The notes under the pieces were generated by a model, which saw nothing but the letters and a program-made list of their open reading frames with translations, was not told the origin of the DNA and ran no database searches. From positions 19,667 through 63,879 of the forward strand of contig PAZY01000013.1 in the NCBI GenBank assembly GCA_002715765.1: a stretch of DNA of 44,213 nucleotides. The letters are read 5' to 3'. Positions 16,974-32,049 of this stretch are shown piece by piece. Within the stretch, counting starts at the first letter, position 1; the number at the start of each line of letters is the position of its first letter. This DNA is from Rhodobiaceae bacterium. GTDB lineage: Bacteria; Pseudomonadota; Alphaproteobacteria; Parvibaculales; Parvibaculaceae. A program made the translations under genes and the position numbers.

Positions 16974-17846
16974 TCAAAGGACGACCGCGTCATAGTCGAG
17001 GCCAATATCGAGGCAAGGCGCGGAATGTGTAATCCACCCGACGGAAATATAGTCGACACCGCTCGCCGCAATCTCCGCCGCTGTCTCCTCTGTCACCCGA
17101 CCGGATGCATCCAGGACCGCGCGACCCTGGTTAAGCTCGACCGCCCGCTTCAAGGTTGCGGGGTCCATATTGTCCAGCAGGATGACTGGCACACCGAGTT
17201 TGAGTGCCTCCTCAAACTGCTCCAGCGTATCCACTTCCATTTCGATCTGGACCATGTGACCGGCCTTGGCACGGGCACCGTCTATCGCGGCTGCGACGCC
17301 ACCCGCCATGGCGATGTGGTTGTCCTTGATCAGGATCGCATCGTAGAGGCCGAACCGGTGATTGACACCGCCGCCCGCCCGCACCGCATATTTTTCAAGA
17401 GCTCGCAGTCCGGGAGTGGTTTTGCGGGTGCAACAGATCCGGGCGCTGGTGCCGGCAACCGCGTCAACAATGCGTGCGGTGGAGCTGGCAACGCCGGACA
17501 AATGGCCCAGAAAGTTAAGCGCCACTCGCTCACCCGTAACAATCGCACGCGCGTCACCCTCAATCACGGCAATCACATCACCGGGCTCAACCCGGGATCC
17601 GTCCGGTTTGCGGACAGAAATTTTCATGTTGGGGTCCATCAGCCTGAATGCAGTGCGAGCGGCGTCCAGCCCCGCGATGACCCCCGGCTGGCGTGCGCGC
17701 AAAACAACCCGTGACTGGGTGCCTGCAGGAATGGTTGACTGGCTCGTAATATCGCCTGCGTCGCCCAAATCTTCCTCCAAAGCGGCTCGCACGGCGCGCT
17801 CAACAATGAAAGACGGCAAAGGGTGAAGATCGTTTAACTGGCTCAC
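16974..17846 (-). CDS. nadC: Nicotinate-nucleotide pyrophosphorylase (quinolinate phosphoribosyltransferase)
   Basis: Converts quinolinate and PRPP to nicotinate mononucleotide, the third step of de novo NAD synthesis. 290 residues. Family signatures include [58 protein letters not shown] and ILIKDNHI, which supply the phosphoribosyl and quinolinate contacts. The start is a GTG overlapping the end of the nadB reading frame (GTGA), so translation of nadC would normally be coupled to nadB. The ribosome-binding site AGGA is 9-10 bases upstream, inside nadB. The premature stop in nadB could therefore lower nadC output. Confidence 0.96.
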
Positions 17847-19462
17847 AAGGCATGTCCTTGATGGGGAAGAGAAGAAGGCGTGTCGAGCACGGTCTGGGCA
17901 ACAATATTTGCTTCATCAAGCGTAATGAATGTCCGGTGTTGCCGCGCGACATCTGTCTGCGGGTAGTCCGCCCGAAAGTGCCCGCCGCGACTTTCCTGTC
18001 GTTGCAGCGCAGCGACTGTAATGAGTTTTGCAGCGGTCACCATATTGACCAGAGAGGGGGCCGTACCGACCGCTCACTCAATACGCAGGATTTCGCGCAG
18101 AGCGTGACGCAGCCCCGTCTCCTCACGCACCACACCGACATAGTTCGTCATCAGCTGCCGAAGCTCTTTGATAATCGGAGAAGGTGGCTGTTGTCGTGGA
18201 ATGGCTTTCATCATTGGCATGCGCGGCACGTCATGGCTGGGTTCAACAGTGCGAAGGATATCAAGGGCAATGCGTGCTCCGAAAACAACCGCTTCCAAAA
18301 GTGAATTGCTGGCAAGGCGGTTCGCGCCGTGCGCTCCGGTTGAAGCGACTTCACCACACGCCCACAGGCCGGGAAGGGAAGTATGTCCGTCCGCGTCAAC
18401 CAGTACGCCCCCCATATGGTAATGCATGGCCGGGGCAACGGGTATGGGCTGCCGGATGGGGTTGATATCCATTAATTGGCAATTGCCATAGACGGTTGGA
18501 AAGGCGGTTGGAAAACGGTCGCCAACGGCGTCTCGCGCATCCAGATAGGCTTTGCCGCCTTCCTGAATAACCCGGGCAATCGCCCGCGCAACGATATCGC
18601 GTGGCGCCAATTCCGCATCATCGTGGACGGCCTTCATGAAGCGCATACCGGCTTCGTCAATCAGTGTGGCACCCGCACCACGCAAGGCCTCGGTCGCCAG
18701 TGGTGCCGGGTCACGCGGGCCGGTAATGGCCGTCGGATGGAACTGCACAAATTCCGGATCCGCAATGGTTGCCCCCGCTCGCGCCGCCATGGCAAAACCC
18801 TCGCCGCGAGAGGTGAGGGGATTGGTTGTTACCGCGTAAAGCCCACCGGACCCGCCGCTGGCAAGAACAACCGAGCGTGCTCGCAGCAAAAGGGGGGAGG
18901 GCAGCATGTCCCCTGTCGGGCGGACAAAGACCCCGGCCACGCGCCCGTCTTCAACAGCAAGTTCGTAAGCAGAGAAGCCTTCAACGATATGGATAGACGG
19001 GGTTGCCCGCACGGCCGCGATCAATGCTTCCATGATGGCACGCCCGGCCCGGTCTCCTTGCACATGCACGATCCGGCTGCGGCTGTGTGCGGCCTCAAGG
19101 CCGACAGTAAGCCTGCCTTCAAGGTCACGGTCAAAAGGGACACCAAGTGAAAGCAGGTCTTGAATGCGGGCTGGCGCTTCCTCCGCCAGAAGCTGTGCAA
19201 TCTCGGGGTCAACAATCCCGGCACCGGCCTCAATGGTGTCTGCTGCATGTTCTTCCGGTGTATCACCTTCGGAAATCGCCGCAGCAATACCACCTTGGGC
19301 CCATGTCGACGAAGCCCCGTCCCCGATCGGAGCTTCAGCCAGCACGGTCACGGGTCGGGGAGCGAGCTTGAGTGCGGTAAAAAGACCTGCAAGCCCTGCA
19401 CCCACAATAAGTACATCGCCGGCATTGACGATATGGCCTCCTGTCTGGTGCGTCTGGCTCAT
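17843..19462 (-). pseudogene. nadB: L-aspartate oxidase, interrupted by in-frame TGA
   Basis: FAD-dependent oxidation of aspartate to iminoaspartate, the first step of quinolinate synthesis. The reading frame runs 539 codons from ATG 19462 (GGGAG 6-7 bases upstream) to the nadC overlap. Codon 463 is TGA (18074-18076), after the peptide REILRIE. The same frame then continues AVGTAPSLVNMVTAAKL and AALQRQESRGGHFRADYP, the normal NadB C-terminal helical domain, ending at a GTGA overlap with nadC. Everything before the stop is intact: FAD loop [34 protein letters not shown] and [16 protein letters not shown] (Arg) to TGA change would explain it. It is a recent nonsense mutation, a base-call error or a read-through site; a 462-residue product lacks the C-terminal domain. 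Confidence 0.9.
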
Positions 19463-19500
19463 GGGTTTCTCCCGATCTATCGACTTTGCCGCCTGCAAAT

Positions 19501-20571
19501 TTATCCCGGCAGATTAATCATCCGTTCAACGGCTGCGCGGGCACGCGGCGCGATCTGCGGGTCAACAACAACTTCGTCCTTCATGTAGAGCAGGCTGTCG
19601 AGAATTTTTGGCAGCGTGATTTTCTTCATATGCGGGCAAAGATTGCAGGGCCGAATGAAATCAACATCAGGGACTTCGGCTGCAACATTGTCGCTCATTG
19701 AACACTCCGTCACCATCATCACTTTCGGCGGGCGGTTGGTCTTTACCCAATTGATCATGCCGGATGTTGAACCTGAGAAGTCGGCTTCGTCCAAAACTTC
19801 CGGTGGACACTCAGGGTGTGCAATGATCGAAATTCCGGGGTGAGCGGCGCGATAGTCCCGAAGTTCCTGCGGTGTAAAACGCTCGTGTACTTCGCAATGA
19901 CCCTTGTATGTGATGATTTTCACATTGGTTTGACGCGCAATGTTGAGCGCCAGATATTCGTCCGGCAGACAAATTACTTCAGGTACACCCAGGCTTTCCA
20001 CAACCTGCACAGCATTTGATGATGTGCAGCAGATATCCGTCTCCGCCTTCACATCCGCTGATGTATTGACATATGTCACCACCGGTATTCCGGGATATTG
20101 CAGCCGGAGTTTACGAATGTCTTCGCCGGTAATGGATTCTGCGAGCGAACAGCCCGCACCGGCATCGGGAATGAGAACGGTTTTTTCGGGGCTCAGCAGT
20201 TTGGCCGTTTCGGCCATGAAGTGCACACCGCACTGGACAATAACGTCAGCGTCCGTCTTTGCGGCTTCACGGGCCAGCTGCAAGCTGTCGCCGACAATGT
20301 CCCCTACGCAATGAAAGACCTCGGGGGTCATGTAATTATGCGCGAGGATGACGGCGTTGCGTTCCTTCTTCAGATCATTAATCGCCTTTACGTAAGGCGC
20401 AAAAAAAGGCCACTCCACTGGTGGGATAACATTCTTGACCCGCTCGTAGTAAGGCGCCATCTCACGGGCAACCTCCGGCGTGTACTCCAGTTCAGGGCGC
20501 TCAAGCGGTTTGTACGCGGGCAGGCTTTGCGCTGTTTGGGCACGTGTCTCGATTTGAAGGTCGGCAGTCAT
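19501..20571 (-). CDS. nadA: Quinolinate synthase
   Basis: 4Fe-4S enzyme that condenses iminoaspartate and dihydroxyacetone phosphate to quinolinate. 356 residues. Cluster ligands are Cys114 in QCGVHFMAE, Cys in DICCTSSNA at about 181-182, and Cys312 in [18 protein letters not shown] near residue 77 and [17 protein letters not shown] are further signatures. AGGAGG stands 5 bases before the ATG. It is the first gene of nadABC, and the upstream region carries a sigma70-like promoter overlapped by one of two related palindromes, so it is probably repressed by the NadQ-like protein encoded upstream. Confidence 0.96.
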
Positions 20572-20588
20572 GGATGCCTCCTTTCGTT

Positions 20589-20611
20589 CTTTTGCTCATT
20601 TTGAGCAAAAG
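20589..20611. promoter_or_regulatory. Candidate NadQ operator 1 (downstream)
   Basis: Perfect inverted repeat with 10-bp arms CTTTTGCTCA and TGAGCAAAAG around TTT, 18 bases upstream of the nadA start codon. Its 15-bp core TGCTCATTTTGAGCA is matched 12/15 by a second site at 20652-20666. It lies about 35-55 bases downstream of the predicted transcription start, where a bound repressor would act as a roadblock or loop anchor. Assignment to NadQ is by context. Confidence 0.75.
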
Positions 20612-20650
20612 TAGGGGTCAAAAAACACCGGCAAAGCCGATCTGATGCTT

Positions 20651-20679
20651 ATGCTACTATTGAGCATTACCGAGGTCAA
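20651..20679 (-). promoter_or_regulatory. nadA promoter with overlapping candidate NadQ operator 2
   Basis: Reading on the minus strand there is a -35 TTGACC (complement of 20674-20679), a 17-base spacer and a -10 TAGCAT (complement of 20651-20656). The degenerate operator core TGCTACTATTGAGCA (20652-20666) covers the -10 and part of the spacer, the classic position for repression. No start site has been mapped. Confidence 0.6.
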
Positions 20680-20742
20680 GCAGTTTCGGCGGTAATGAAG
20701 AGCCCTGAAAAAAGTAGATCTTCACAAGAAGCAGTCACAAAA

Positions 20743-21777
20743 TCAGGTGTTTGCACGCGTTCTGGTGGGGGCAAGCTTGAGGCCGGGAGCGGGGCGTTCG
20801 CTAAAAACTTCCCGCCGAAAACGGAAGAGTTCTGCCGGTCGGCCGCCGGTGCGGGTGCTCATACGACCGGTTTTTTCCACCAGACCTGCTTTTTCAACCA
20901 ACCGACGGAAATTCTGTTTATGGACATGCAGACCAAGCAGTGCTTCGCCGGTGCGCTGTAGTTCATAGAGCGTGAAAGTGTCATCCATCAGCTCAAACAC
21001 AACGGGACGGTATTTGAGCTTGGCACGCAGGCGGCTCATCGCGGTGGCGAGAATGCGACGATGGTCATGTTGCATTGGAAGGCCGAGTTGAGGATCGTTT
21101 GCACGCCCCAGGGCAATCGCATTGGACCGCCCGTCACGTGCGGCCTCGCGCACAAGCCCGGCTTCGTAAAGCAGCTCGTGTCGCTCAAGCACGGTTTCCT
21201 CGTCCCAGTTCCCGTCATCAGACCCGAAGATGAAGCGGACCCGGTCGGCGCGCCGCCCGCGTGATAACTCATCGCTTGTTGGGTCAGGTTTTCTTGCGGC
21301 CCAATCAGTCAGAAGCGGCATGATCACCCGGTCAATGATCGCGGGCTTGCCGTCACGCCAGTCTTCCCATGGGAAATACTGATACCAGCTTCGCCAGAAC
21401 ACGCCGTCGCGCTCTTCGCCCCCCCGGGTCAGTGCGAGATAGCCGACAGACACTATGTGTTCAATCTCGTCCAGCACTTCCTGTGCATGGCGCCCGCGGT
21501 CGCCGAAAGTATAAAGCTGTTCGACATAGCCCAAGCTAAGCTGTGTTTGTTCCTGCACCCAGCTTCTCAACCCGATTTCCATCGTTCGGTGTTTGAGAGG
21601 ATCAAACGGGCCGAAGGGAAGTGCATCCCAGACCGCAGGGTCCTCGTCTTTGGCCCCCGAGGGACGCACAGCCAGAATTTCGGGCGACCCGTCAGCAACA
21701 CGCACAATGGCTGCGTTAAGGTCGATCACAACTGGTTTGTTGTGCCGGTCTGGGAGGCCTCTGTTTGCGGACGGCAT
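20743..21777 (-). CDS. nadQ: Nudix-domain transcriptional regulator of NAD synthesis, NadQ/NrtR-like
   Basis: 344-residue regulator with an N-terminal Nudix-fold domain and a C-terminal winged helix, matching the NrtR/NadQ architecture in which the Nudix domain senses an NAD-related ligand. The Nudix helix region (about residues 55-90) lacks the canonical REUXEE catalytic core, so it is probably ligand-binding only. The C-terminal part (FTLYELQRTGEALLGLHVHKQNFRRLVEKAGLV then TGGRPAELFRF) matches the NrtR DNA-binding domain pattern. AGGAGA precedes the ATG by 10 bases. Position directly upstream of nadABC and two palindromes in the gap support the NadQ call; the symbol is from family knowledge, not a search. 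Confidence 0.8.
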   Translation of the reverse strand: MPSANRGLPDRHNKPVVIDLNAAIVRVADGSPEILAVRPSGAKDEDPAVWDALPFGPFDPLKHRTMEIGLRSWVQEQTQLSLGYVEQLYTFGDRGRHAQEVLDEIEHIVSVGYLALTRGGEERDGVFWRSWYQYFPWEDWRDGKPAIIDRVIMPLLTDWAARKPDPTSDELSRGRRADRVRFIFGSDDGNWDEETVLERHELLYEAGLVREAARDGRSNAIALGRANDPQLGLPMQHDHRRILATAMSRLRAKLKYRPVVFELMDDTFTLYELQRTGEALLGLHVHKQNFRRLVEKAGLVEKTGRMSTRTGGRPAELFRFRREVFSERPAPGLKLAPTRTRANT

Positions 21778-21912: not shown

Positions 21913-22527
21913 CTATTTCGCGTCTTTTTCCTTTAACAGGATAGTAAAACGCTTCAGAAACCGGGCCTGGGCAACAGCAGGGGGGAGTGGCTTCAGTTTG
22001 ATGGGGACAAGCCCCTTAGGTCGTCCAAACAGGCTTGCAGCCTCCTGATCGGCAAACCCGGCGAGCTGTGTCGCTTCCAGGAATGCAGATGCATGGTCTG
22101 CTCGCTTGATCAGCGCCTCGACATTCTTGGGCAGGTCTGCCGGCAAGCCAAATCGCAGATGGATCGCCTTTTCCAGTCGATGCTCAAAGGATTTGTAATC
22201 ATATCCGAGTGCCGCTTTGAAGGGGCTGATCATATCACCGATCACGTATTCAGGTGCATCATGCAGAAGGGCGGCAAGCCGCCATCGTGCAGGCCAGCCA
22301 GGACGGAACTTCCCGCAGATTTCTTCGACCAGGACAGAATGTTCGGCCACGGAAAAAGCTTCGTCACCTGTGGTCTGCCCGTTCCAGCGTGCAACCCGCG
22401 CAAGCCCGTGAGCAATGTCCTCAATCTCCACATCGAGTGGAGAAGGGTCAAGCAGGTCCAGCCGCCGCCCGGACAGCATGCGCTGCCACGCCCGAGGGCT
22501 GGTTGGCTTCTGTTTGGGTGAAGGCAT
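21913..22527 (-). CDS. HD-domain phosphohydrolase (YfbR-like)
   Basis: Predicted metal-dependent phosphohydrolase of the HD superfamily, about 204 residues. Conserved metal-ligand motifs are AEHSVLV (His), LLHDAPEYVIGDM (His-Asp pair) and a later D in IKRADHAS, the pattern of 5'-nucleotidase YfbR and relatives. RAWQRMLSGRRLDLLDPSPLDVEIEDIAHGLARV before the core is typical of an alphaproteobacterial subgroup. ATG 22527 is preferred over an upstream in-frame start. The gene is divergent from the Lon-like protease and 135 bases upstream of nadQ on the same strand; a role in nucleotide turnover linked to NAD is only inferred. Confidence 0.8.
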   Translation of the reverse strand: MPSPKQKPTSPRAWQRMLSGRRLDLLDPSPLDVEIEDIAHGLARVARWNGQTTGDEAFSVAEHSVLVEEICGKFRPGWPARWRLAALLHDAPEYVIGDMISPFKAALGYDYKSFEHRLEKAIHLRFGLPADLPKNVEALIKRADHASAFLEATQLAGFADQEAASLFGRPKGLVPIKLKPLPPAVAQARFLKRFTILLKEKDAK

Positions 22528-22734
22528 GCAGCACACGGTCCCTAAAATCAAATGAAGCGAAAGCCTAGTGACGGGATCAGCGAATGTCGAGTGAGCTCTT
22601 CTTGTAGTTGCGCTTTGATTTGTGACAAGCTGACAGAGGCGGTTTCGGTCTATGCCTGCCTTGATCTTTTGTTAGGGAATGAAGAGCATCAAACAGCAGC
22701 AAATCAAGATCCTCAAGAAGGCACGAACAGAGAA

Positions 22735-25212
22735 ATGAGCCCTGTGCAAAAACCTGAACCGCTGAGCCCGGACCTACTCTACCGAAATTGTGATGTTTCA
22801 CAGTTCGAGTTCACAACCACAGCCGAATTGCCGGACACGCTAGGCCTGACAGGACAGGAACGCGCGCTGGAAGCGATTGAGTTCGGTGTCGCGATGGCGA
22901 GGACGGGTTACAACATATTTGCCTTGGGCCCATCCGGGGCGGGCAAGCGCGAAGCCGTGACGCGGTATCTGGAAAAAGTCGCCAGCACTAAACCTGCACC
23001 GAGCGATTGGGCCTATGTGAACAATTTTTCAAGCCCCAACAAGCCGATCGTCTTGCGCATGGGGGCAGGGCGGGCGGCCTTGCTGAGCAATGGTGTCGCC
23101 GCACTCATTGATGATCTTAAAGGGGCAATCCCGGCTATTCTTGAAAGCGAGGAATATAAAAAGCGCCTGATGTCGATTGATGCTGAATATTCACAACATC
23201 AGGGCCAGGCATTCGAAACGCTACGCCTTCGGGCAGAGGCCAAAAATATCACACTTTTGTCGACACCTTCCGGTTTTGCTTTTGCGCCGCTGCGCGAAGG
23301 TGAGGTGATGAAGCCGGATGAGTTTAACAAATTGCCCGACGAAGAGCGGGAGCGGATCAAGAACACAATCGGCGAGCTGGAGCAGGAACTGGCGCGGATT
23401 TTCCAGCACGTCCCCGGCTGGGAAAAAGATCGTCGCGAGCAGGTGCGGGAGCTAAACCGGGAGGTCTCGGAAAACGCTGTCGGTCGTTCCATACGAGATC
23501 TGGCCGCTTTGTTTGAAGGAAACGAGCCGGTACGCGTCTGGCTGGATACGCTTGAAGCCGATCTTGTCGAGAATATTGGACTGTTTACTCTGGATGGAGA
23601 GGAGCAGGCGGCGCTGCAAACACAATCCGGCCCGATGGGCATGGGAAGTGCTGATCTCTTTCGTCGCTACCAGGTGAACGTGATTGTGGACAATCGGGCG
23701 GGGCAGGAAAGAGAGCCCGAAAATGGCAATGCTGACAGTGATTTTATCGGTGGCGGCGCGCCCGTGATCGTCGAAGAACATCCAACCTTCACAAACCTGA
23801 TCGGGCGTATCGAGCATGTATCCCAGATGGGGGCCCTTCTCACGGACTTTGGTCTGATCAAGGCGGGCGCGCTTCACCGTGCCAATGGTGGTTATCTTTT
23901 GCTTGATGCCAATCGCATTTTGCGCGAGCCTCTCGCGTGGGATGCGTTAAAGCGGGCCTTGCGTACAAAACGCATCGCTCTGGAAACACCGGGAGATTAT
24001 CTCAGCCTGGTCAGTACCGTGTCGCTGGAGCCGGACACGATCCCGCTGGATGTAAAGGTCATCTTGTTCGGTGACAGGTTGCTTTATTACATGCTGGCGG
24101 ATGCGGACCCGGAGTTTGGGGATCTGTTTAAAGTCGCGGCTGATTTTGATGATCAGATTGATCGTGATGCCGAGAGTGATCTTCTGTATGCGGGGCTCAT
24201 AGCGACAATCTGTCGTAAAGAAGACATGCTGCATCTAACGCCTGATGCGCTTGGCCGTGTCATCGAGGAGAGCGCAAGGTATGCCGAGGATGCTGAAAAA
24301 CTTACCCTCGAACTGGAGCCGATGGCGGATCTGGTTCGGGAGGCTGATCTTTACGCACGGCAGGAAGCAGCCTCCGCGATTGACGCGCGTCACGTGCAAA
24401 GAGCCGTCGATGCACGGATCAGCCGCAATGACCGTTTGCGGGAGCGAAGCCTGGAGACGATCACCCGCGAAATCATCATGATTGATACCGAAGGCGAGGT
24501 GGTCGGGCAGGTGAACGGATTGTCCGTCCTGAGCCTGGGGCAGGCCAGTTTTGGCCGTCCCAGTCGCATTAGCGCGCGCGTACGTATGGGCAATGGAAAC
24601 CTGGTCGATATAGAGCGCGAGGTGGACCTTGGCGGTCCCCTTCATTCAAAGGGTGTAATGATCCTGAGCGGGTTTCTGTCTGCCCATTTTGCGACGTCCA
24701 TTCCACTCTCACTTTCTGCGTCCCTCGTGTTCGAACAATCCTATGGCGGCATTGACGGAGATAGTGCGTCGGCCGCTGAGCTGATTGCGCTTTTATCATC
24801 TTTGAGCAAACTGCCTGTCGCGCAGAATTTTGCGATAACCGGTTCGATCAATCAGTTTGGTCAGATACAGGCGATCGGTGGAGTGAATGACAAGATAGAG
24901 GGCTTTTTCGATATCTGTGCCCGGCGCGGGCTCACCGGCGATCAGGGAGTGCTGATCCCCCATGCCAATGTTAAGCATCTGATGCTCCGGCGCGATGTCG
25001 TCGATGCGGTGGAGCGTGGCGTGTTTGATATTTTTCCTGTTGAAACGATCGAAGAGGCGGTTGAGCTCATGATGGGTCGCCCGGCGGGACTGCGCGATGA
25101 AAGAGGTGCGTTCCCGGACGGGTCCGTCTTTGAAAGGGTGGAAGTCCAGCTCACAAAATTTGCGGAGACCCAGAGAGCCTTCAGTTCAGGTGACAGGGGG
25201 CGGCGCGGATGA
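22735..25212 (+). CDS. Lon-like ATP-dependent protease (LonB/YcbZ type)
   Basis: 825-residue AAA+ protease of the Lon-like family (COG1067). It has Walker A GPSGAGK near residue 65, a long insertion with predicted coiled coil (about 150-250), a hydrophobic/AAA core with GGYLLLDANRILREPLAW, and the C-terminal protease domain with the Ser-Lys dyad Ser677 (GGIDGDSAS) and Lys720 (GGVNDKIEGF), 43 residues apart as in Lon. No N-terminal Lon substrate-binding domain. The ATG at 22735 has only a weak ribosome-binding site. The stop overlaps the next ATG (ATGA), so the USP-like partner is translationally coupled. Confidence 0.93.
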   Translation: MSPVQKPEPLSPDLLYRNCDVSQFEFTTTAELPDTLGLTGQERALEAIEFGVAMARTGYNIFALGPSGAGKREAVTRYLEKVASTKPAPSDWAYVNNFSSPNKPIVLRMGAGRAALLSNGVAALIDDLKGAIPAILESEEYKKRLMSIDAEYSQHQGQAFETLRLRAEAKNITLLSTPSGFAFAPLREGEVMKPDEFNKLPDEERERIKNTIGELEQELARIFQHVPGWEKDRREQVRELNREVSENAVGRSIRDLAALFEGNEPVRVWLDTLEADLVENIGLFTLDGEEQAALQTQSGPMGMGSADLFRRYQVNVIVDNRAGQEREPENGNADSDFIGGGAPVIVEEHPTFTNLIGRIEHVSQMGALLTDFGLIKAGALHRANGGYLLLDANRILREPLAWDALKRALRTKRIALETPGDYLSLVSTVSLEPDTIPLDVKVILFGDRLLYYMLADADPEFGDLFKVAADFDDQIDRDAESDLLYAGLIATICRKEDMLHLTPDALGRVIEESARYAEDAEKLTLELEPMADLVREADLYARQEAASAIDARHVQRAVDARISRNDRLRERSLETITREIIMIDTEGEVVGQVNGLSVLSLGQASFGRPSRISARVRMGNGNLVDIEREVDLGGPLHSKGVMILSGFLSAHFATSIPLSLSASLVFEQSYGGIDGDSASAAELIALLSSLSKLPVAQNFAITGSINQFGQIQAIGGVNDKIEGFFDICARRGLTGDQGVLIPHANVKHLMLRRDVVDAVERGVFDIFPVETIEEAVELMMGRPAGLRDERGAFPDGSVFERVEVQLTKFAETQRAFSSGDRGRRG

Positions 25213-31071: not shown

Positions 31072-32049
31072 ATGAAGGCTCTGTTCATCACGTCGAACCG
31101 GATTGGCGACGCCATTCTGTCCACGGGACTGCTTGGCCATCTGGCGGAAGCGTATGACAACCCCGAGATCACGGTCGCGTGCGGTCCGGTCGCCGCGCCG
31201 CTGTTTGCCGGGGCACCCGGTGTGGTCAAAGTCCACACCATGCGCAAGGAGAAATGGGGAAAACACTGGTTACGTCTCTTGCGCGGGGTTTTTACCACCC
31301 GGTGGGACATTGTTGTGGATTTGCGAGGGTCCGCCACGGCCTACATACTATGGACCCGTAAGCGTTATGTTTTGCGTCCCGATCACACGCGGCCGCGTGT
31401 TGAACACATTGGGAGTGTGATGGGCTTGACCCCGCCGCCCTCTCCGTGCTTGTGGCCAAGTGAGCTGGAACGAGCGGCTGCCAGAAAGCGCCTGCCCACG
31501 GGGGAGAAAGTGCTGGCAGTAGGGCCAACAGCTAACTGGCCCAAGAAAATGTGGCCGGTGGAAGCCTATCTCGACCTGGCCCTCAGGCTGACCGGCAAAG
31601 GAGGCGCTTTGGAAGGGGCCAGGATCTTGCTGACGGGCGGCCCCGGAGAACAAGAACAGGTGCAGGCGTTTTATGACCGTGTACCAAAGGATCAACTGAT
31701 TGATGAAATTGGGGCGAAACTGCTCAGCACTTATGCTCAGTTTGAGCGTGTCTCTCTCTTCATCGGTAATGATTCTGGCCTGATGCATCTGGCCGCGGCA
31801 GCAGGCGCACCAACACTTGGCCTTTTTGGTCCAACCCGCGATGACCTTTATGCCCCATGGGGCGAGAATGCATCTTTTGTGCGTGGACCGCGTTCTTATG
31901 CGCAAATCATGGCCGATCCGGACTATGATTTTCATTCGCCAGCAAGCGAGATGGCAGACCTGACGGTAGAGGCGGTGGAACAAGCCGCCATGGCGTTGCT
32001 CAATCGGACAGAGAAAAATCAGGAGAAAAGGCGTGAGCCAGACATTTGA
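31072..32049 (+). CDS. Glycosyltransferase family 9 (heptosyltransferase-like)
   Basis: GT9 enzyme of the ADP-heptose:LPS heptosyltransferase type, 325 residues, probably acting on the inner face of the cytoplasmic membrane in LPS core synthesis. N-terminal ALFITSNRIGDAILSTGLL and the C-terminal FIGNDSGLMHLAAAAGAPTLGLFGPT are the family signatures; VGPTANWPKKMWPVEAYLDL is the donor-binding loop. The real acceptor is unknown. The ATG at 31072 is chosen because upstream in-frame sequence has no family resemblance. Its end overlaps the dihydroorotase-like GTG start by 17 bases, an unusually long overlap that suggests co-translation. Confidence 0.88.
   Translation: MKALFITSNRIGDAILSTGLLGHLAEAYDNPEITVACGPVAAPLFAGAPGVVKVHTMRKEKWGKHWLRLLRGVFTTRWDIVVDLRGSATAYILWTRKRYVLRPDHTRPRVEHIGSVMGLTPPPSPCLWPSELERAAARKRLPTGEKVLAVGPTANWPKKMWPVEAYLDLALRLTGKGGALEGARILLTGGPGEQEQVQAFYDRVPKDQLIDEIGAKLLSTYAQFERVSLFIGNDSGLMHLAAAAGAPTLGLFGPTRDDLYAPWGENASFVRGPRSYAQIMADPDYDFHSPASEMADLTVEAVEQAAMALLNRTEKNQEKRREPDI

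Follow-up and report, generated by a model that had tools for sequence, protein, structure and literature searches.

A terminator-like hairpin at fixed spacing from a NadQ operator in alphaproteobacterial nadA leaders

How is nadABC shut off at a locus where two operator-like sites, and not one, separate a regulator gene from nadA, and what is the role of the sequence between them? The question was raised by the 171-bp gap between nadQ and nadABC in a stretch of 44,213 nucleotides from a Rhodobiaceae bacterium (contig PAZY01000013.1), which is referred to here as the window.

The nadQ-nadABC gap, its operators and promoter

All genes flanking the gap are on the minus strand. nadQ (20743-21777) is followed by nadA, quinolinate synthase (19501-20571, PF02445, 9e-113; the A of the ATG is 20571), nadB, L-aspartate oxidase (18074-19498, NF005701, 3e-200; longest open reading frame, the true start probably lying further in), and nadC, quinolinate phosphoribosyltransferase (16974-17846, TIGR00078, 1e-98). 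A Shine-Dalgarno sequence of nadA, AGGAGG, was found by inspection at 20577-20582. On the other side of nadQ are an HD-domain/YfbR-like gene (21913-22551) and a LonB/LonC-like AAA protease gene (22552-25212; PF13654, Lon_C), the latter divergent from nadQ; together they occupy 21913-25212.

The initial annotation had described the upstream gene as a Nudix/winged-helix regulator. Its 344-aa product was matched by phmmer to PDB 7q91, 'NADQ transcription factor' (E = 2.2e-85, query residues 51-339), one of the solved NADQ structures 7q91-7q94, with homology spanning most of its length. Pfam placed an NrtR-type winged helix (NrtR_WHD, PF21906, 1.1e-19) at residues 260-320, and no Nudix model was found in the product at 1e-3, so that only the winged-helix half of the description was visible by Pfam. 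The NCBIfam NtrR/NrtR equivalog NF050029 scored 65 bits, below its cut-off of 400, and matched the C-terminal part only, in keeping with the NadQ layout of an NrtR-related C-terminal winged helix and an N-terminal domain unlike that of NrtR. By homology, the regulator upstream of nadA is NadQ (COG4111), a known family. According to passages of PMC5343134, NadQ was named by comparative genomics, from the motif ttATRCTCannntGAGYATaa and linkage to nadABC. A published characterization calls it, by title, 'ATP-responsive' (Minazzato et al. 2022, cited in PMC11452294), whereas the initial annotation had presumed feedback by NAD.

The proximal operator is a perfect palindrome, CTTTTGCTCA-TTT-TGAGCAAAAG, at 20589-20611 (core 20593-20607), with 10-bp arms and a 3-nt spacer as first annotated. 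It lies just before the nadA ribosome-binding site, and its edge is 17 bases from the ATG, not 18, the only error in the earlier observation. The distal operator, TTATGCTACTATTGAGCATTA, is at 20649-20669; its core TGCTACTATTGAGCA (20652-20666) is identical to the proximal core at 12 of 15 positions, and the centres are 59 bp apart, also in agreement with the annotation. When the specified positions of the published motif were counted by hand, the proximal operator matched 16 of 18 and the distal operator 15 of 18. The exact core TGCTCANNNTGAGCA has one occurrence in the 3.65-Mb genome; this and the other genome-wide site statements are based on pattern searches. When the 171-bp gap was dinucleotide-shuffled, 0.005% of the shuffles had a perfect degenerate core, and 0 of 20,000 had a perfect site together with a second site.

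The promoter that had been proposed under the distal site, TTGACC (20679-20674) and TAGCAT (20656-20651) separated by 17 bp on the minus strand, was recovered by the promoter scanner and is conserved in relatives. The nadA-proximal half of the distal site also serves as the -10 hexamer. The transcription start is predicted near 20644, and from this consensus-predicted start the proximal operator core begins at about +36.

Retention of the sites follows the presence of NadQ. Two sites were found in 49 of 57 nadA leaders near NadQ genes versus 3 of 3131 control windows; for a site with at most one mismatch the counts were 51 of these 57 leaders and 2 of the 3131 windows. Among genomes drawn evenly over the class and having a readable nadA leader, a site preceded nadA in 32/33 with NadQ versus 0/14 without it (p = 4e-11). 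The palindromes are thus conserved upstream of related nadA genes, and the description of the sites as NadQ-like operators was borne out. In the close relatives and several other lineages the distal site is asymmetric in a conserved way, reading TRCTCAnnnGTAGYATAA or near it: the second half has lost TGAG and gained TAG, giving the -10 hexamer TAGYAT, and TTGAC lies 16-18 bp upstream of it in nearly all leaders with a TAGYAT distal site. The asymmetry is explained by this double use of the downstream half, and the three mismatches that make the distal site look weak are therefore largely a conserved feature. Judged from these sequences, the distal site is a promoter-operator compromise.

Within the window no NadQ site was found upstream of nadQ. 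Of the complete local feedback circuit that the initial annotation had envisaged, NadQ, its sites, their conservation and the promoter overlap stand, and the loop is one without visible autoregulation.

Two further possibilities for the pair of sites were rejected. Looping between the operators is contradicted by their spacing, which is without helical phase (R 0.04-0.07). A second promoter at the proximal operator was set aside because inspection revealed no -10 hexamer in register there and the Shine-Dalgarno sequence abuts the operator in several relatives.

Hairpin and T-run between the operators

Between the two operators, and missed by the initial annotation, is a terminator-like hairpin, ATCGGC-TTT-GCCGGT (20627-20641, minus strand), which was identified with the scanner and by folding and has counterparts in relatives. 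A T6 tract (20620-20625, minus strand), a U-tract in the RNA, lies 3' of it, and the hairpin with GT6 spans 20641-20620. A G+C-rich stem with a T-run directly 3', the pattern of an intrinsic terminator, is therefore present in the window and is kept in relatives. Two properties of the window hairpin count against termination. It is short, with four G-C pairs and a folding energy of -7.4 kcal/mol, and terminators are not usually found where it sits, downstream of the nadA promoter and no more than 20 nt from the predicted start.

The position of the hairpin relative to the proximal operator was constant. Two sites 55-140 bp apart were present in 58 leaders, and in 50 of these the end of the best hairpin lay 18-21 nt before the proximal core, versus 9% in dinucleotide shuffles. 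The spacing script missed the window and one relative (L002), whose stems are below its length limit; the same spacing was found there by inspection. A perfect-complement scan gave a sharp peak 19-20 nt from the proximal core, and the T frequency in relatives was 0.71-0.92 at -18 to -14 from that core. A strict hairpin plus T-run at an offset of 17-23 nt, any operator being counted, was present in 52 leaders; at control offsets from the last operator it occurred in 0/94 at 30-36 nt and 0/94 at 40-46 nt. The operator-operator distance ranged from 55 to 131 bp in leaders with the constant hairpin-to-operator spacing. Thus the 3' arm of the hairpin is fixed relative to the operator, and the 5' arm and the promoter are not.

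Consensus folding based on MAFFT was unsuccessful, since loop lengths differ and the arms were misaligned, and the offset and swap tests were used instead. The 17 leaders with uncommon arms self-pair, and their arms pair with those of other leaders in 6% of swaps. Changes in the arms keep the pairing, and the computation shows compensatory changes in the hairpin.

The hairpin was present in 26 and absent in 29 of 55 lineage representatives chosen regardless of it. It occurs, for example, in Sinorhizobium meliloti (pSymB), Shinella, Bradyrhizobium and Microvirga; in S. meliloti and Shinella a single operator is present, downstream of the hairpin. A comparable hairpin was mostly absent from the nadA leaders of genomes without NadQ, with one long-loop exception. 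Hyphomicrobium and relatives (L021-L040) keep the hairpin and the 20-nt spacing but frequently have an eroded T-run; in several Hyphomicrobium leaders this pattern is not accounted for by intrinsic termination alone. In two-site leaders C is strongly conserved from -9 to -7 relative to the proximal core (81% at -8; window 20614-20616) and could pair with the Shine-Dalgarno region.

Presence of the hairpin went with the position of the operator. Of 42 hairpin-bearing leaders, 40 had the operator core no earlier than +33 relative to the predicted start; in most hairpin-free leaders it was at -21 to +6. In the even draw, operators at +30 or later were accompanied by a hairpin in 12 genomes and not in 2, and operators before +30 in 0 and not in 11 (p = 2e-5), with positions that are rough because the promoters were picked by consensus. 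Some leaders (L107, L110, L064 and L066) have a far-downstream operator yet no hairpin, and fit poorly with the model that follows.

A possible two-stage block and other readings

A two-stage NadQ block of nadABC, with initiation blocked at the distal operator and a roadblock coupled to a terminator at the proximal one, is given by us slightly less than an even chance. We infer that NadQ binds both sites in response to a ligand. On the distal operator it would cover the -10 hexamer and prevent initiation; on the proximal operator it would halt any polymerase that escapes the distal block. Some 20 bp separate the hairpin and U-tract from the proximal operator downstream, so that the active centre of a NadQ-halted polymerase would be positioned on or beside the U-tract with the hairpin just emerging, and the polymerase would be released together with an abortive leader of 20-30 nt. 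Once the repressing signal drops, both blocks would open and nadABC would be transcribed. Coupling to RNA polymerase is suggested because a fixed offset links an RNA hairpin with a downstream DNA position, the arms change while their pairing is kept and a T-run comes next. In intrinsic termination the RNA is released 7-9 nt past the stem, and the leading edge of RNA polymerase is some 14-18 bp ahead; a polymerase that has run up against a protein on the proximal operator would therefore be on or near the U-tract.

The repressor part of this scheme is already known, and the operator-coupled terminator would be the new part. That a metabolite-controlled repressor, bound downstream of a promoter, makes an efficient terminator of a weak leader hairpin, by keeping polymerase over the U-tract, in alphaproteobacterial NAD synthesis including that of Sinorhizobium, is put forward tentatively, as a proposal that may well be wrong.

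The hairpin could instead be a weak leader terminator or insulator that is always active and reduces basal or stray transcription without interacting with NadQ, beside ordinary double-operator repression. NadQ and its operators are of a known kind, intergenic terminator-like hairpins are common, and nadQ is usually directly upstream in the same direction; we regard this as a rather unlikely but serious reading. It leaves unexplained the 18-21 nt spacing to the operator where the promoter distance varies, the retention of the hairpin beside divergent neighbours, and its absence when the operators sit on the promoter. The neighbours in question, a gene for an FkbM methyltransferase in L012 and one for an acyl-CoA dehydrogenase in L098, are both divergent from nadA, and they bear equally on the hairpin as a terminator of nadQ. 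This is disfavoured as very improbable, the hairpin being downstream of the nadA promoter, even though nadQ immediately precedes the leader, on the same strand, in the window and in most relatives.

A post-transcriptional role, either as a 5' stem that stabilizes nadABC mRNA or in a fold with the operator hairpin that hides the Shine-Dalgarno sequence, appears improbable. The operator palindrome does fold strongly as RNA (-12.1 kcal/mol, z -5.3), the minimum free energy structure of the leader pairs CCCC with the AGGAGG region, the C before the proximal core is conserved as described above, and the Hyphomicrobium hairpin persists where its T-run does not. Yet the spacing is tied to the DNA operator and not to the 5' end or the start codon, symmetry around the operator becomes weak past five or six positions, and an mRNA-stability stem needs no T-run. 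We consider it extremely unlikely that the nadA promoter lies elsewhere with sites for another regulator, or that the two-site pattern is due to chance; the start is predicted only, and consensus promoter matches alone are weak evidence, but the co-occurrence of the sites with NadQ, their frequency relative to control windows and the conserved -35/-10 pair over the distal site all speak against it.

A known riboswitch or Rfam leader RNA, including the NAD riboswitches, was rejected, as Rfam gave no match at E values up to 1 in 20400-20900 and none at gathering score in the window. No leader peptide and no alternative anti-terminator was identified in the nadA leader.

Related systems and further sites

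The locus shares with the NadQ regulon (COG4111; PMC5343134; PDB 7q91-7q94) the homology of the regulator, the motif, the linkage to nadABC and, as far as the passages of PMC5343134 used here go, the occurrence in alphaproteobacteria and some beta- and gammaproteobacteria. Those passages are silent on overlap of the -10 hexamer with an operator, on a hairpin and on a fixed spacing. Our literature search, which Minazzato et al. 2022 lay outside, returned no account of the nadA leader and no roadblock-plus-terminator system; parts of the architecture may be reported in that paper.

Roadblock repressors (LacI, PurR, GalR, CcpA and CodY; PMC4132739, PMC10310618) have a site downstream of the start, as is predicted for the proximal operator, at which elongation would be stopped. 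The passages of these two papers attribute the freeing of the stalled polymerase to Mfd or Rho and do not describe a roadblock paired with a hairpin and U-tract, whereas in the nadA leader a hairpin and U-tract at a fixed distance would release the polymerase. A LacI roadblock about 30 bp from the start is reported to leak, and the authors suggest that retained sigma possibly hinders release by Mfd (PMC4132739). A built-in terminator would therefore have a purpose; it could be an Mfd-independent answer to a leaky near-promoter roadblock.

The proposed mechanism also resembles termination by RNA polymerase I assisted by Reb1 or TTF-I, in which a DNA-bound protein pauses the polymerase over a T-rich release element just upstream. 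The proteins are unrelated, and that system ends transcription units without metabolite control. Leader attenuators and NAD riboswitches resemble the nadA leader in that a biosynthetic operon has a terminator-like hairpin in its leader, whereas here control would come from a DNA-bound repressor.

If the model is correct, a repressor can gate a terminator by stalling polymerase in register, beyond hiding a promoter, and the reported weakness of roadblocks near the promoter would be solved. It would supply a searchable rule for other repressors (hairpin end, about 20 bp, operator), a likely shut-off route for de novo NAD synthesis in many alphaproteobacteria and, in bacteria, a counterpart of the roadblock-assisted termination known for RNA polymerase I. 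The S. meliloti leader, with a downstream operator only, is a testable case.

Other arrangements of NadQ sites were also seen. In eight leaders (L104, L110, L113, L116, L119, L121, L139 and L143) the starts of the two sites are separated by only 22-27 bp, the pair generally covers the promoter, and the hairpin and T-run at fixed spacing are absent. In L064 and L066, NadQ loci of the gammaproteobacterium Wohlfahrtiimonas, a distant nadA type (34-35% identity) is preceded by two perfect sites that lie about 190 bp from each other, without a hairpin. In Hyphomicrobium and relatives the distal site is a long palindrome with arms of up to 17 bp (L037) and has no TAGYAT -10 hexamer in it.

Further genomic targets were rejected, the other near-perfect sites being in a coding region (31733) or beside genes with no visible NAD role. 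At 31733-31749 of the window, ATGCTCAGTTTGAGCGT has one mismatch to the NadQ-type pattern and lies inside a glycosyltransferase-like coding region, probably by chance. In L076 (about 1501-1517; G000:C28:86186-86202), ATTCTCAATTTGAGTAT is located just upstream of a TetR-type regulator gene and near an NTF2-like gene, both named from their translations, and is more likely an operator of the adjoining TetR-type regulator than a NadQ site.
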